Shown here in pieces: positions 26,786 through 42,157 of a DNA stretch of 42,157 nucleotides. The stretch is taken from positions 461,474 through 503,630 of the forward strand of contig JAMPDC010000001.1 of the NCBI GenBank assembly GCA_023665865.1. Direction: 5' to 3'. The notes beneath the pieces were generated by a model that was not told where the DNA came from, did not search any database, and saw only the letters and a program-made list of their open reading frames with translations. Origin of the DNA: Staphylococcus sp. (GTDB taxonomy: Bacteria > Bacteroidota > Bacteroidia > Bacteroidales > Muribaculaceae). The position numbers and the translations under genes were made by a program. Each line of letters opens with the position of its first letter. Position 1 is the first letter of the stretch.

Positions 26786-26843
26786 AAGAGTCGGGAGTCG
26801 AGAGTCGGGAGTCGAGAGTTGAGAGTTGGGAGTCGGGAGTCAA
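26786..26843. repeat. GAGTC-type minisatellite
   Basis: Degenerate tandem units of 7-9 bp (GAGTCGGGA, GAGTCGAGA, GAGTTGGGA). The same motif recurs in both arms of the inverted repeat at 36251-36801. It ends 8 bp before the -33 box of fkp. Confidence 0.85.
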
Positions 26844-32806: not shown

Positions 32807-34150
32807 ATGAAAACTCTATCAGTTGACATCAAAGAAGTCCTCGGCACAGTCAGCCGTGAAGACATCAACAAACTCGACGCCAAGGCTACAAACGCCCTCG
32901 ACGAAGTTCTCAACGGCACCGGCGCAGGCAGCGACTTCCTCGGCTGGGTCAACCTCCCCACCGACACCACCGACGCTCTCCTCGACGACATCATCGCCAC
33001 TGCCGACTCACTCCGCGCGAGCTGCGACACTGTGGTGGCCATCGGCATCGGCGGATCATATCTCGGCGCCAAGGCCGTCATCGAAGCCCTCAGCGACAGC
33101 TTCGCAGCCTACCGTCCCGCTCAGGAAGGCAACCCCAAAGTCCTCTTCGCAGGCCAGAACATCGGCGAAGACTACCTCTATGAGCTCCAGGACTATCTGA
33201 AAGACAAGCGTTTCGGCATCATCGTCATCTCAAAGAGCGGCACCACCACCGAGCCCGCCATCGCCTTCCGTCTGCTCAAAGAGCAGCTCGAACGCCAGCT
33301 CGGCCTCGATGAAGCCCGCAAACGCATCGTCGCCATCACCGACGCACAGCGCGGCGCGCTCCGCCGTCTCGCCACCGAGGAGGGCTACAAGACATTTGTC
33401 ATCGCCGACAACGTAGGCGGTCGCTTCTCAGTGCTCACCCCCGTCGGTCTCCTCCCCATCGCAGTGGCCGGCTTCGACATCCGCGCCCTCATCGACGGAG
33501 CTGCCGAGATGGAGAAACTCACCAACACCGCCGACGCCTCAAACCCAGCATATCTCTATGCCGAGACCCGCAACGCTCTCTATCAGGCTGGCAAGAAGAC
33601 TGAAATCCTCGTCAACTACAACCCCAAGCTCCACTACTTCGGCGAATGGTGGAAGCAGCTCTACGGCGAGAGCGAGGGCAAAGACAACCTTGGCATCTTC
33701 CCCGCTGCGGTCGACAACTCTACCGACCTCCACTCGATGGGCCAGTGGATCCAGGAAGGCGAGCGCACCATCTTCGAGACCGTAATCTCAGTCTGCGAAA
33801 GCCGCCACGAGAAGCTCATCCCCTCTGACGAAGCCAACCTCGACGGCCTCAACTACATCGCCGGCAAGCACATCGACGAGGTCAACAAGATGGCAGAGCT
33901 CGGCACCCGCATAGCCCACGTCGACGGCGGTGTCCCCAACATCCTCATCACCCTCCCCGCCCTCGAGGAGAAATATCTCGGCCAGCTCATCTACTTCTTC
34001 GAGAAAGCCTGCGGCATCAGCGGCTACATCCTCGGAGTCAACCCCTTCAACCAGCCCGGCGTCGAAGCCTACAAGCGCAACATGTTCGCCCTCCTCGCCA
34101 AACCCGGCTACGAGAAGGAGACCGAAGCCATCCAGGCCCGCCTCGGATAA
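32807..34150 (+). CDS. pgi: Glucose-6-phosphate isomerase
   Basis: Cytosolic isomerase of 447 residues interconverting glucose-6-P and fructose-6-P. Two SIS domains are visible. The phosphate-binding [13 protein letters not shown] is near residue 80, [13 protein letters not shown] near 140, and the family signature [17 protein letters not shown] near 200. The catalytic Glu region is in the [14 protein letters not shown] segment. The length is that of the short bacterial form common in Firmicutes and Bacteroidetes (the long E. coli type is about 550). It completes lysS-gpsA-pgi, behind a GGTACC-rich spacer. No clear TAnnTTTG box is present directly upstream, so transcription from the lysS promoter is likely. 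Confidence 0.97.
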
Positions 34151-34219
34151 TAGCCCCACGTGCAGGCTCTGACTGACAGAACAGCCACACAACGGCACTC
34201 ACACACACATAACCACGAC

Positions 34220-34272
34220 AGAAGAGACACGCAGGTGCGCGCAGGCGTCCCCGTGTCTCTTCTTTGCACCGG
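34220..34272 (+). other. Long hairpin with possible pseudoknot before metX
   Basis: AGAAGAGACACG (34220-34231) pairs perfectly with CGTGTCTCTTCT (34252-34263) over 12 bp, around a 20-nt loop. Loop bases GGTGC (34234-34238) can pair with GCACC (34266-34270) just after the stem, an H-type pseudoknot. It could be the pgi terminator (only a short T run follows) or a leader element of metX, whose ATG is 25 nt downstream. I cannot assign it to a known riboswitch class. Confidence 0.6.
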
Positions 34273-34294
34273 CAAGCCAATCACACACGCAGCA

Positions 34295-35305
34295 ATGACC
34301 AACTATTATCACCACGACACCCCCTTCGGGCTCGAACTCGGAGGCACGATAGAGGGACTGACCATCGCCTACCACACCTACGGCACCCTCAACGCCGACC
34401 GCAGCAACGTCGTCTGGGTCTGCCACGCCCTGACTGCCAACAGCGACGTCCGCGACTGGTGGCCCCACACGGTGGAGGAGGGCAAATTTCTCGACCCCGC
34501 TGTCAACTTCATCGTCTGTGCCAACATCCTCGGCTCCCCCTACGGCACCACAGCGCCTCTCCACATCAATCCCGCCACCGGCAAGCCATACTACAAGGAC
34601 TTCCCCCCCTACACCATCCGCGACATCGTCAACGCCCACCGTATCCTCGCCGACGCCCTCGGCATAGGGCGCGTCTCGACCCTAGTCGGCTGCTCCGTCG
34701 GAGGCTTCCAGGCCATCGAATGGGCTGTCATGGAGCCCGAGCGCTTCGAGAGGCTCGTCCTCATGGCCACCGACGCCGTCGCCACCCCCTGGACCATCGC
34801 CATCGACGAAACGATGCGCATGTCTATCGAAGCCGACCCGACCTACGGCGACCCCACCCCCGAAGCCGGACGCAAAGGCCTTGCAGCAGCCCGCGCCATC
34901 GGCCTGCTAAGCTACCGCGGCTACTATGGCTACAACCTCACACAGCGCGACACCGAGGAGCTCCCCGAAGTCCACCGCGCATGCAGCTACCAGCAATACC
35001 AGGGCGAGAAACTCTGCCGCCGCTTCGACGCCTACTCCTACTGCGCCATCCTCAACGCCTTCGACACCCACGACGTCGGGCGCGGACGCGGAGGCCTCGA
35101 CGCAGCCTTGCGCCGCGTGAAGGCACGCACACTCGTCATCGGACTCGAGACCGACATCGTCTTCCCCCCCAAAGAGATGCAGGAACTGTGCTCGAAAATC
35201 CCCGGCGCAGTCTACGGCGAGATCCACTCACCCTTCGGCCACGACGGCTTCCTCGTCGAATACAACCAGCTCAACAACCTCCTGCTCCCCTTCATGAAGC
35301 AGTGA
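34295..35305 (+). CDS. metX: Homoserine O-acetyltransferase
   Basis: Alpha/beta-hydrolase-fold acyltransferase of 336 residues. It activates homoserine with acetyl-CoA (some family members use succinyl-CoA) for methionine synthesis. HALTANSDVRDWW near the N-terminus is the usual oxyanion region. The nucleophile Ser is in GCSVGGFQAIEW, where most members have GGSLGG; Asp is in GLETDIVFP and His in GHDGFLVEYNQL near the end. LGSPYGTTAPLHINPATGKPY is the signature seen in MetX and not in serine acetyltransferases. The start at 34295 is preferred over an upstream in-frame Met at 34160, which would read through the hairpin. It is unlinked from mtnN/luxS, but part of the same methionine metabolism. 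Confidence 0.93.
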   Translation: MTNYYHHDTPFGLELGGTIEGLTIAYHTYGTLNADRSNVVWVCHALTANSDVRDWWPHTVEEGKFLDPAVNFIVCANILGSPYGTTAPLHINPATGKPYYKDFPPYTIRDIVNAHRILADALGIGRVSTLVGCSVGGFQAIEWAVMEPERFERLVLMATDAVATPWTIAIDETMRMSIEADPTYGDPTPEAGRKGLAAARAIGLLSYRGYYGYNLTQRDTEELPEVHRACSYQQYQGEKLCRRFDAYSYCAILNAFDTHDVGRGRGGLDAALRRVKARTLVIGLETDIVFPPKEMQELCSKIPGAVYGEIHSPFGHDGFLVEYNQLNNLLLPFMKQ

Positions 35306-35371: not shown

Positions 35372-36253
35372 ATGACCCGCACGACCAAAGGATACATCCT
35401 CGGGGCTGTAGCGGCGGTGAGCTACGGCACCAACCCGCTCTTCGCCGTCCCCCTCTACCAGCTCGGCATGACAGTCTCGTCAGTGCTCTTCTACCGCTAC
35501 CTCTTCGCCACCATCATCCTCGGCACCATCATGGCCATCCGCGGCGACAGCTTCCGCCTCACACCCCGTCAGACCGTCCAGATGGTGATGCTCGGCATCT
35601 TCTTCGCCCTCTCGTCAGTGTTGCTCTTCGAAGCCTACCGCTACATGGACGTCGGCCTCGCCTCGACCCTCCTCTTCGTCGAACCGGTCTTCATCGCCCT
35701 CATCCTCTGGGCCTTCTACCACGAGCGCATCTCGCGGTGGACCATCATCTCCATAGCCATCTGTCTCGCCGGCATCATCTGCCTCTGCAATCCCGGTCCC
35801 GGCGCCCACGTCACAGCCATCGGCGTCACCCTCGTCATCTTCTCATCGCTCGCCTACGCGCTCTACATGGTCTTCATCAACAAGACCCGCATCGGTCAGC
35901 TCCCCGGATCGACCATCACGTTCTACTCCCTGCTCTTCGGCATGATAGTCTTCGCGGCGCGCACCGAATGTTTCACCCTCGTGCAGCCCGTCCCCACCAC
36001 CGGCTGGCTCCCCTGGGCCTGCATCGCCGGCATCTCCATCGTCCCCACAATAGTCTCACTGATGACCGTCGCCGTCTCCATCCGCTGCATCGGCTCAGTA
36101 GCAGTCTCCATCCTCGGCGCCCTCGAACCCATCACCGGAGTCATGTTCGGAGTGCTCCTCTTCGGCGAAATCCTCACCTTCAAAGCCACCATCGGCATCA
36201 TCCTCATCCTCACCGCCGTCCTCACACTCGTCACAAAGAATCGTGAATCGTGA
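35372..36253 (+). CDS. EamA/DMT-family transporter
   Basis: Inner-membrane protein of 293 residues with ten predicted TM helices in two EamA repeats (about 8-140 and 152-288). The inter-repeat motif is GVTLVIFSSLAYALYMVFINK, and the second repeat contains GSVAVSILGALEPITGVMFGVLLFGE, both typical of drug/metabolite exporters of this fold. The substrate cannot be predicted. Its last codons and stop (AATCGTGAATCGTGA) lie at the edge of a large inverted repeat, so the C-terminal Asn-Arg-Glu-Ser is encoded by repeat sequence. It follows metX by 66 bp and may be cotranscribed. Confidence 0.9.
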   Translation: MTRTTKGYILGAVAAVSYGTNPLFAVPLYQLGMTVSSVLFYRYLFATIILGTIMAIRGDSFRLTPRQTVQMVMLGIFFALSSVLLFEAYRYMDVGLASTLLFVEPVFIALILWAFYHERISRWTIISIAICLAGIICLCNPGPGAHVTAIGVTLVIFSSLAYALYMVFINKTRIGQLPGSTITFYSLLFGMIVFAARTECFTLVQPVPTTGWLPWACIAGISIVPTIVSLMTVAVSIRCIGSVAVSILGALEPITGVMFGVLLFGEILTFKATIGIILILTAVLTLVTKNRES

Positions 36254-36801
36254 GTCGAGAGGCGAGAGTCAAGAGGCGAGAGTCAAGTCATAAGTCATAA
36301 GTCGTAAGTCGATAGATAGCTACGCACTCCGACTGCCGCCACCACCATACACCGCCTACCTCTCAGCCCACAACTCTCGACTCTCGACTCACGATTCTCG
36401 ACTCCCCATTCCCAAGTCATATCTGCCGGAGGCAGATAGATCATGCTGAAACCCCAGGCAAGGCCTGGGGACCATCCAACGTGTATATATCCCAGAGCCT
36501 CGGAGAGGCGGGTTATGGCAGAGTGAGAGGCGATGTGTGGCAGAGTGATATCCACACGCGTTTATGGCGCCTCTCCGAGGCTGTTATTCCATACGGCTAT
36601 CCACCCCCAGGCCTTGCCTGGGGCTTCATCATAACTACCCTGCCTCCGGCAGGAGCCGGCTTTCAGAGTCGGGAGTCGAGGCGTGTGGTGAAAGGCAGGC
36701 GGTGTATGGTGGTGGCGGCTGTCGGAGTGTGTAGCTATCTTTCAGGCGACTCTCGACTCTCGACTTACGACTCTCAACTAACTCCCGACTCCCGACTCTC
36801 A
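36251..36801. repeat. 551-bp inverted repeat between two convergent genes
   Basis: The two arms run from the EamA gene's stop to the DUF2156 gene's stop. Matched blocks in mirror order are 36315-36360 with 36694-36739 (43 of 46 identical), 36423-36435 with 36640-36652 (13 of 13), 36452-36470 with 36605-36623 (19 of 19), and 36496-36510 with 36568-36582 (15 of 15). GAGTC-type units lie at both outer ends and between blocks. About 57 bp form the centre. Confidence 0.9.
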
Positions 36802-37779
36802 AAACGTTACATTGAATTTCCTGAGCATTTCCGTGGGGTGGTAGGATTCCTTGGCGTAGCGGAGGCCGGGGTCGCCGACGTCTTCCTCGCGGTTGATGTA
36901 GAGGACTTCGGGGTGGCGGGCGGTCATCATGACGGCGAAGAGCTTGTTGACAGTCTCGCCTGCTCCTGCCACCTCGTGGTTCATCTTCTCGATGTGGGTG
37001 TAGAGCGTGTCGCCGCGGACTTCGCCGAGCGTGAAAGCCACGATGCCGTCGGTCGGAGTGGAAAGGACGGCCCCCTCGAAGCCGTAGAGATCCATGTTGT
37101 CAAGCACGCGGCCCACCTGCTCCCTCTCGATGTCGGCGATGGCGGGTTTGGACAGAGGCAGATGTGTCGCCTCGAAGAAAGCCTTGACCTGCGGGATCAT
37201 CCCGGGGGTCAGCGGGGTGAAGGTGTAGCCGGGATTGTCGGCCTCGAAACGGTTGACGTGGTTGCGCTTCTTGCTGAGTTTCTTGCCTGAGAGAGTGGCA
37301 AGGGCCTGCGCGTCGTAGAGATAGTCGCTCCAGTCGTCCAGCGGCTCGACGCTCGCTGCACCGAGAGCCTTGAGAGGGGCGACATAGGCTTCGGGGACGG
37401 CGGAGAAGACAAGCTCGCATCCCTCCCTCCCGCAATAGGCCCGCAACAGAGCGACCGACTCCTCAAGCCCCATCCGTCCGACGGGGATTGAGAAAGCCGG
37501 CCGTGTGAGGTCGTCTTCCCTGACACCTTTGATGAAAAGCGTGTCGTTGACGATGCAATATGTATAGTCGAAGTAGTCGGTCCACATGAATGTACCTCCG
37601 ACGGTGAAGTCGCAGGTGCGGCAGCAGGCACTGTCGAGGAGCGGACGCACTCTGCCTATGTCGGCAAGCGTCATGGGCTTGAAGTCGATCAGAGCCGGAG
37701 CTTTGCGCGGACGCCGTGGAGCCATAGTGGCGACGGCTACCGGAATCTGGAACCCTCTTGTGTGCGGAGACGTGATCAT
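36799..37779 (-). CDS. DUF2156 (LPG synthase C-terminal-like) acyltransferase-fold protein
   Basis: Soluble protein of 326 residues belonging to DUF2156, a tandem GNAT-like fold related to the catalytic part of lysyl-phosphatidylglycerol synthase. No TM helices are present, so it is not the flippase form. Features include CDFTVGGTFMWTDYF, LSGKKLSKKRNHVNRFEADNP, GIVAFTLGEVRGDTLYTHIEKMN, and the C-terminal YINREEDVGDPGLRYAKESYHP, the last being typical of the family. Its aminoacyl or acyl donor is unknown. Its TGA stop falls at the far end of the inverted repeat. An internal Met at 37725 is an alternative start. It follows fabD on the same strand after 106 bp. Confidence 0.88.
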   Translation of the reverse strand: MITSPHTRGFQIPVAVATMAPRRPRKAPALIDFKPMTLADIGRVRPLLDSACCRTCDFTVGGTFMWTDYFDYTYCIVNDTLFIKGVREDDLTRPAFSIPVGRMGLEESVALLRAYCGREGCELVFSAVPEAYVAPLKALGAASVEPLDDWSDYLYDAQALATLSGKKLSKKRNHVNRFEADNPGYTFTPLTPGMIPQVKAFFEATHLPLSKPAIADIEREQVGRVLDNMDLYGFEGAVLSTPTDGIVAFTLGEVRGDTLYTHIEKMNHEVAGAGETVNKLFAVMMTARHPEVLYINREEDVGDPGLRYAKESYHPTEMLRKFNVTF

Positions 37780-41268: not shown

Positions 41269-41951
41269 TGATGAAGGACCTCAAAGGAATAAAGGGAAAA
41301 TTCTACATAGCCTCGCTCATCGAAGAGGGTGAACACGAGCACCAGGACTTCAAATTTGCCATCTCCGACGCACGCAAGATAGCCCGCAGCATCTCAGCCT
41401 TCGCCAACAACGACGGAGGCCGCCTCCTCGTAGGTGTCAAAGACAACGGCGTCATCGCAGGCATACGCAACGAGGAAGACATCTACGTCATCGAGCAGGC
41501 CGCCGAGATGTATTGCCATCCACCCCAGCAGATCCACGTCACCGCCTTCCGCACCGACCCCGACAAGACAGTGCTCCGCATCGAGATCGACCGTGCCAGG
41601 CGCCGGCCGGTAGCAGTCATCGAAGCCGACGGAGCCCACCGCGCATACTACCGCGTCAAAGACGAAAACATCGCCGCCCCCGACATCATGGTGCGCGCAT
41701 GGATAGCCGCCGCTGCCGACGAAGGCCACCTCATCTCCATCACCTCACCCCAACAGCAGCTCATCGACATGATGCAGCAGAGCACCCGTGTCACCGTCGA
41801 AACCTTCATGCTCACCGCCCACGTCTCACGCTCCACAGCCGAAGACACCGTCATCAGCCTCCACGCCATGAACCTCCTCGACTTCCGATATGACGGCAAA
41901 GAATTCACACTCCACCTCAAAGAACCCGCAGATGCTACCGCAGAACCATGA
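41268..41951 (+). CDS. AlbA_2 (Schlafen-type) domain protein with C-terminal winged helix
   Basis: Protein of 227 residues. The N-terminal AlbA_2 domain includes EHEHQDFKFAISDARKIARS, SISAFANNDGGRLLVGVKDNG and VIAGIRNEED, the signature of this nucleic-acid-binding domain. The C-terminus after about residue 155 looks like a winged helix (QQLIDMMQQSTRVTVETFMLTA, then SRSTAEDTVISLHAMNLLDF). A DNA- or RNA-linked regulatory role is likely; the target is unknown. The start is ATG-ATG at 41268, overlapping the luxS stop. The last few codons (ADATAEP) are read from the first copy of a 26-bp tandem repeat that continues beyond the gene. Confidence 0.88.
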   Translation: MMKDLKGIKGKFYIASLIEEGEHEHQDFKFAISDARKIARSISAFANNDGGRLLVGVKDNGVIAGIRNEEDIYVIEQAAEMYCHPPQQIHVTAFRTDPDKTVLRIEIDRARRRPVAVIEADGAHRAYYRVKDENIAAPDIMVRAWIAAAADEGHLISITSPQQQLIDMMQQSTRVTVETFMLTAHVSRSTAEDTVISLHAMNLLDFRYDGKEFTLHLKEPADATAEP

Positions 41952-42157
41952 CGTGAAATGATGCTACCGCGGAACCGCAACGTGAAATGGTACCGTGGAA
42001 CCGCAACGCGAAATGGTACCGTGGAACCGCAACGTGAAATGGTACCGTGGAACCACCACCACGCAATGGAACCCGAAACCGCAACGCGAAATGGTACCGT
42101 GGAACCGCAACGCGAAATGGTACCGTGGAACCGCAACGCGAAATGGTACCGTGGAAC
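41932..42157. repeat. 26-bp tandem repeat array, open at the window end
   Basis: The unit is ATGGTACCGTGGAACC followed by GCAACGCGAA. About 8.6 copies are visible, starting at 41932, 41961, 41987, 42013, 42039, 42066, 42091, 42117 and 42143 (the last one cut). The first two copies are diverged (ATGCTACCG), the fifth and sixth are altered, and the rest are near identical. Each canonical unit contains GGTACC. Confidence 0.92.

Follow-up and report, generated by a model that had tools for sequence, protein, structure and literature searches.

The window analysed here is a stretch of 42,157 nucleotides from a Duncaniella-like member of the Muribaculaceae (GenBank assembly GCA_023665865.1, referred to as G000; contig JAMPDC010000001.1, referred to as C1, positions 461474-503630), and its subject is a 551-bp palindrome at 36251-36801 that lies between two convergent genes, encoding an EamA-family transporter (81% identity to its Duncaniella muris counterpart) and a DUF2156-type protein. 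As the original prediction had stated, the interval runs from the TGA of the EamA gene at its left end to the reverse-complemented TGA of the DUF2156 gene at its right. The palindrome is a nest, the core of which consists of two inverted copies of a ~92-nt unit of three hairpins; from the outside inward, it comprises an AGTCGNR-type heptamer array, a 66-nt arm, a heptamer array of opposite orientation, a three-hairpin unit and a ~51-nt centre, and then the mirror image. Two covariance models of the unit were used, R1, built from units of G000 alone, and R2, rebuilt from 111 matches. The features of the locus are as follows.

35372-36253, plus strand: EamA-family transporter gene (Pfam EamA, 4.6e-33); its last codons, AAT CGT GAA TCG TGA, lie in heptamer-array sequence
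36238-36310, no strand assigned: left outer heptamer array, AGTCGNR-type, limits approximate
36311-36376, plus strand: left outer arm, 66 nt, forming an inverted-repeat pair with 36678-36743 (86% complementary)
36373-36418, no strand assigned: left inner heptamer array in inverted orientation (GACTC), limits approximate
36419-36513, plus strand: three-hairpin unit A, hairpins at 36423-36435, 36452-36470 and 36497-36509 (79.3 bits with R2)
36514-36564, no strand assigned: centre, separating units A and B; the corresponding place in relatives can hold a Y1 transposase gene
36565-36656, minus strand: three-hairpin unit B, inverted, hairpins at 36569-36581, 36605-36623 and 36640-36652 (78.8 bits with R2)
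36661-36680, no strand assigned: right inner heptamer stretch (GAGTC)
36678-36743, minus strand: right outer arm, 66 nt
36747-36801, no strand assigned: right outer heptamer array in inverted orientation, ending in the DUF2156 stop codon
36799-37779, minus strand: LPG_synthase_C (DUF2156-type) gene (Pfam, 5.4e-33), with a C-terminus as in relatives

The inverted repeat is real and far beyond chance. Aligned against its own reverse complement, the 551-bp stretch scores 564, compared with 266 ± 17 (maximum 316) for 100 first-order Markov copies of the palindrome and 317 for the best other 551-bp tile of the window, and the z score of its DNA fold is -17.1, with none of 100 shuffles as good; the self-alignment score and the fold together rule out a chance origin. 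A fold-back assembly artefact is likewise disfavoured, because the arms differ from each other and sit inside a 2.63-Mb contig. The mirror order proposed for four matching blocks was recovered in full: the best 46-bp block pairs 36316-36361 with 36693-36738 (43/46) and sits within the 66-nt arm pair, and inside it follow blocks pairing 36423-36435 with 36640-36652 (13/13), 36452-36470 with 36605-36623 (19/19) and 36496-36510 with 36568-36582 (15/15). Alignment of the arms beyond these blocks held in part; the two halves share 198 identical positions in 313 aligned columns, in which the good blocks are separated by heptamer arrays that pair only loosely. The 13-, 19- and 15-bp blocks correspond to the unit's three hairpins, and every hairpin is itself palindromic (CTGCC-GGA-GGCAG; CCCCAGGC-AAG-GCCTGGGG; GCCTC-GGA-GAGGC), therefore each unit can fold alone, or the whole palindrome can fold as one long hairpin.

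The unit belongs to a dispersed repeat family. When up to one mismatch is allowed, the CCCC hairpin occurs at 20 places in G000 (0 for the control pattern) and GCCTCGGAGAGGC at 45 (23 + 22; control, 3 + 2), while exact copies of CTGCCGGAGGCAG occur at 38 places in G000 and at 0-3 in each of 26 congeners; a few of the CTGCCGGAGGCAG places are isolated in apparent coding sequence (1531626 and 1883962). At E <= 0.01, covariance searches match the unit 47 times in G000 (41 are among the matches listed), and these dispersed copies rule out a repeat private to this locus. Units are present in 12 of the 27 genomes of the genus, G000 included, with 3 to 60 matches each, in at least 126 of 397 genomes of the family Muribaculaceae (23 of 30 genera), and, using R2, in at least 67 of 393 genomes of the order Bacteroidales (57 of 207 genera). 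An exact pattern of the G000 unit gave 0 matches in a broad contig collection, from which records of G000 or near genomes may be left out; the later covariance model showed that the stems differ between species.

What is conserved in this family is its shape. Among 40 aligned units of G000 (7 of 47 candidate rows lacked the full hairpin set and were dropped), 95.8% of cells are paired and 62 two-sided changes occur, compared with 18 in shuffles; none of 500 shuffles reaches the value of the structure as a whole. Pairing had partly guided the choice of hairpins 1 and 2, but it is also seen to covary at pairs 3-20 and 4-19, which played no part in the picking and show CG, AU, UG, UA, GC and GU. 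Across species, in an alignment fitted to the model, 96.1% of cells are paired and two-sided changes occur in 18 of 20 pairs (478 cells versus 125). The loops behave differently: a GGA loop is found in hairpin 1 of 89 of the 111 units, with 38 kinds of 5' stem, and in hairpin 3 of 102, with 20 kinds of stem, and the A-rich stretch before CCCC is largely constant while the stems change. We read these constant loops and free stems as the mark of a shape that, together with its loops, may be recognised by something. Covarying stems and constant loops are as compatible with RNA as with single-stranded DNA, and one may postulate a structured small RNA, or a 3' element of an mRNA, encoded by the unit. 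We consider this very improbable: no Rfam family fits in 36200-36850 (best E 1.8, far under the gathering score), which rules out a known Rfam RNA in this interval, a scan covering sigma-70-type promoters only returned no match, and the units form inverted pairs around a transposase gene in relatives. The template for a double-stranded RNA that the original prediction had offered would be conjectural, with the same two negative results bearing on it.

This association with HUH/Y1 transposase genes was assessed at 39 Y1 loci, comprising 20 of 35 genus rows and 19 new loci out of 30 in a second set that was picked on protein score only, although a few loci (e.g., L128, L161 and L166) had contributed units to R2. 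At many of the fetched loci the Y1 gene lies between two inward units, mostly 10-125 bp from the matched stretch; with R2, inward-facing units flank the gene on both sides in 22 loci and on one side in seven (one of these, L125, is weak at 20 bits), with units otherwise placed in three and none in seven. The nearest units face inward on 51 sides and outward on five. R1 finds units at 12 of the 20 genus Y1 loci, and all 19 loci of the second set have a unit; 136 kb of control sequence without known Y1 gave the window's two units and three weak matches (14-18 bits), one of which falls within unit B. Y1 transposases occur in 13 of the 27 genus genomes. Among the 397 family genomes, 84 have both unit and Y1, 42 the unit only, 120 Y1 only and 151 neither (Fisher p 2e-5), and in the order-level search Y1 frames with the motif stand beside units in three of 19 loci (L219, L225 and L228, among L211-L229).

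The enzymes themselves carry the Y---Q--HH signature, a mark of TnpA_Y1 subclass 1.2, in 38 of 39 cases, and are assigned to that subclass by this motif. NCBIfam transpos_IS200 matches 19 of 19 Y1 proteins (best 1.6e-22) and REP_Tyr_transpos 15 of 19, weakly (best 5.5e-7), and the eight PDB matches of the Y1 profile are IS608 TnpA and other transposases, some of them presumably ISDra2. A particularly close link was found in one genome, G003, where the units at the Y1 locus L137 are 91% identical to that genome's dispersed units and at most 66% to those of the other 17 sampled genomes. Doublets in G003 consist of two units ~30 bp apart, and the simplest reading of the similarity is that these doublets are gene-less derivatives, as expected of miniature inverted-repeat transposable elements (MITEs); in G000 no gene-bearing relative was found.

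Because units in relatives border Y1 genes of the subclass 1.2 signature, the core at 36419-36656 is probably a gene-less derivative resembling MITEs or REPINs (inverted doublets of repetitive extragenic palindromic, REP, sequences). We consider it likely that this core is a non-autonomous doublet, the gene-less version of the inward pair that encloses Y1 genes, placed in an array palindrome at an inversion junction. The repeat is thus probably mobile; the suggestion that the palindrome is a mobile element gains from association (a dispersed unit, patchy in relatives, bordering HUH/Y1 genes there), but no movement was observed. Under the proposed mechanism, each unit would fold into its hairpins in single-stranded DNA, as in replication. 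A Y1 enzyme would recognise the GGA loops together with neighbouring bases such as the A-rich stretch ahead of CCCC, cut, rejoin the ends and paste the stretch elsewhere, and could serve gene-less copies in trans. At this locus the doublet is enclosed by AGTCGNR arrays and 66-nt arms that together form the palindrome, a nest at the probable junction of a local inversion that brought two 3' gene ends face to face.

Several results weigh against this interpretation. No Y1 transposase gene was found in G000 (completeness 88.75%), in which the unit family looks orphaned, and 42 of the 126 unit genomes of the family have no Y1 match, where unit counts are lower bounds (candidates scored per genome were 150 in the genus search and 10 in the family and order searches). 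Co-occurrence within the genus (8 both, 4 unit only, 5 Y1 only, 10 neither) is suggestive at p = 0.09. Seven of the 39 Y1 loci have no unit at threshold, units at L120 face outward, and the nearest unit at L138 and L151 is part of a doublet located to one side; of the 28 family-level loci chosen because they hold units (L092-L119), just five contain a Y1 frame, with the motif. When 27 Y1-bordering units were compared with 18 genomes, with few copies from each, their own genome ranked first for nine (~1.5 expected). Neither a target-site rule nor an empty site or excision product came to light, flanks inspected by eye showed no constant duplication, and no array or unit was seen by eye at the other end of the moved block (34101-34300).

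The unit genomes without a Y1 match, together with the many doublets that lack Y1, would also suit a scenario in which the unit is a target and not an end: Y1 genes or elements would insert between inverted units already in place, and the units themselves would spread by another route; a passage of PMC8450116 offers a precedent, ISPpu9 in REP sequences. We regard this scenario as unlikely in view of the 51 of 56 nearest units that face inward, the cognate similarity in G003, and the left and right outer ends, which are alike in several Y1 elements (L133, L136, L164 and L168), though not in all.

The original prediction had also offered a bidirectional transcription barrier, for which we found no specific support. 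As a rival to the mobile doublet, this scenario holds that the palindrome is a terminator or barrier of the convergent gene pair and is kept for that function, and both its very stable fold and the positions of units in G000 speak for it: of 20 gaps that hold units, 9 are convergent, 11 tandem and none divergent, whereas control gaps (50 bp or longer) divide into 3, 32 and 8 (p = 0.0008 for the convergent class), in a rough tally based on simple gene calls (L026 and L031 were assigned by hand from the open reading frame list, L050 was dropped, 1005936 was left out, the left neighbour of L027 is weakly called, and this locus itself is among the control convergent gaps). The tally also fits insertion that is tolerated downstream of genes, however, and REPs in general lie mostly downstream of genes according to passages of PMC3733652. 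Moreover, the terminator scan returned a single weak match on the plus strand (36569-36581, tail TGTTATTCCA, poor T tract; 0.4 expected) and none on the minus strand, four other copies (near 513420, 1182930, 1521850 and 1628300) have, by eye, a separate terminator-like hairpin and T run between the gene and the unit, and 15 of the 26 other genus genomes have no unit match. A barrier kept for its function therefore appears quite unlikely, and any terminator role or other function of the unit in the cell would be putative.

The gene order at the locus is derived. In relatives, fabD (acyl transferase), DUF2156, an alpha/beta hydrolase and EamA follow one another co-directionally; the four-gene order was found in five of six EamA-anchored loci and its first three genes in seven of nine DUF2156-anchored loci (EamA in view in five of those seven), where some loci may be of the same species. 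In the window the hydrolase-EamA and DUF2156-fabD blocks are intact and face each other, and the convergent EamA/DUF2156 arrangement was seen in none of the relatives' loci compared. Since DUF2156 and EamA are co-directional in relatives, we infer an inversion: the stop-to-stop junction appears best explained by inversion of one block relative to the other, with the palindrome filling the new junction. As to the order of events, the palindrome may be a cause of the inversion or a later arrival. The hydrolase's left neighbour (phosphoglucose isomerase) was not found near EamA in the relatives' loci.

It had further been proposed that the element supplied new C-termini to both genes, and this was borne out for a few residues of one. 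The EamA-side array starts a few codons ahead of the stop (GAATCGTGAATCGTGAGTCGAG), and the last residues of the protein, NRES, are array-encoded; similar tails, VENRES and VVSRES, close two other predicted proteins at other arrays. EamA nevertheless keeps the length of its homologues (291-298 aa at six loci), therefore the change is small, and the DUF2156 C-terminus is not new, as NVTF is present in relatives too.

IS200/IS605 elements (subclass 1.1) have unlike hairpin ends and are not known to carry terminal inverted repeats, whereas at 22 of the 39 loci considered here the Y1 gene has units of a single kind, facing inward, to its left and right. The enzymes resemble TnpA_Y1 subclass 1.2 as described in passages of PMC6006769 in their Y1_Tnp family, their HxH plus Y---Q--HH motifs (38 of 39 loci) and their occurrence in Bacteroidetes; the passages on that subclass describe it as generally without typical terminal IS200 structures and name no REP, whereas the genes here are mostly bordered by three-hairpin units. 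Like REP/REPIN systems with REP-associated tyrosine transposases (RAYTs; REPtrons, including subclass 2.6), the family consists of palindromic repeats dispersed between genes, also as inverted doublets, and found beside a Y1 gene. It differs in its ~92-nt length, three hairpins and GGA loops, in the absence of GT[AG]G at the hairpin 5' foot in the 5' flanks read, and in Y1 genes that are not class 2. Subclass 2.6, for which passages of PMC6006769 report 'atypical secondary structures' in Bacteroidetes, has YIH[QN]NP where the enzymes here have Y---Q--HH; one of those atypical structures could be this unit.

Other systems share single traits. TIRtrons, with their terminal inverted repeat-associated tyrosine transposases (TIRYTs), also have a Y1 gene bordered by long inverted repeats, some of them dispersed and also found as dimers, but many TIRYT repeats share GGGGWSAS (passages of PMC3733652), and the 26 known from description are placed in subclasses 2.1, 2.2 and 2.5 (passages of PMC6006769). 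BrickBuilt MITEs of Porphyromonas gingivalis, likewise intergenic composites of inverted ends and a tandem minisatellite in Bacteroidales, have a 23-bp minisatellite (passages of PMC4596501; compared by description), and the TAACTGA repeats of Beggiatoaceae, also 7-bp direct repeats between genes, differ in sequence and phylum (passages of PMC4679880). No title or abstract start in the open-access literature searched describes this three-hairpin unit.

The family is a further form of the REPIN/MITE-Y1 theme, for which an enzyme partner can plausibly be named. A bolder proposal, which we put forward as possible though doubtful, is that subclass 1.2 HUH transposases have in this unit their missing substrate: these would be order-wide single-strand-DNA elements of Bacteroidales with ~90-nt triple-hairpin inverted-repeat ends, spreading gene-less doublets preferentially into heptamer-array palindromes and so building nested palindromes that help drive local inversions and rewrite gene ends. 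Subclass 1.2 enzymes have been little studied and are described in passages of PMC6006769 without a recognised DNA partner, and the three-hairpin unit is a defined candidate substrate, the largely constant loops and freely varying stems of which make activity directly testable. It would also add a presumably mobile repeat family to a dominant gut-bacterial group, and one locus here combines short palindromes, heptamer arrays and a gene-order inversion.

With regard to the arrays, eight of the 14 array clusters of G000 lie within 200 bp of a unit (p 5e-8, supposing that 12% of the genome is intergenic, an assumed figure). This hints that heptamer arrays might serve as landing sites; a shared tolerance of intergenic places would also fit. 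Another array (GAGTCGG type) lies between divergent genes at 26788-26841 of the window without a three-hairpin unit, and a heptamer-array palindrome with no unit matched, possibly an 'empty' version of the nest, is found at C1:756631-756840 (L030 2132-2341). Judged only by eye, the left outer arm is similar to a GCTACGC..CTCCG...CAGCCC stretch that lies next to arrays at L021, L022 and L023. In other species, 7-bp-like tandem stretches of TTAGTTT, AATTCTC and CAATTAC types were seen by eye beside units (L137 of G003, at 1181-1302 and 1988-2110; L173, L194 and L207), and the link between arrays and units may be general.

Several further arrangements of units were observed. A doublet lies at C1:503889-504118, just past a 26-bp tandem repeat that reaches the end of the window (41931-42157), and at L027 hairpin 1 recurs at 71-bp steps beside a doublet (C1:1183172, 1183243 and 1183314), as though a piece of the unit had undergone local amplification. 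In another genome, three unit matches spaced exactly 457 bp apart (G475:C22 48840, 49297 and 49754) perhaps form a tandem array. Near-identical single units in G296 (L190-L197) each have short inverted arms around them (AATGTCACTAAAATAAGC type); as at this locus, the units are nested in a further palindrome. Finally, other long palindromes were seen by eye near gene ends in Duncaniella-type genomes, after the DUF2156 stop at L231 and L233, after EamA at L057 and in L026 (~C1:1516700-1516800); these have partly similar arms (GTACAGAAATT type in L233 and L026) and perhaps represent a second palindromic repeat family.
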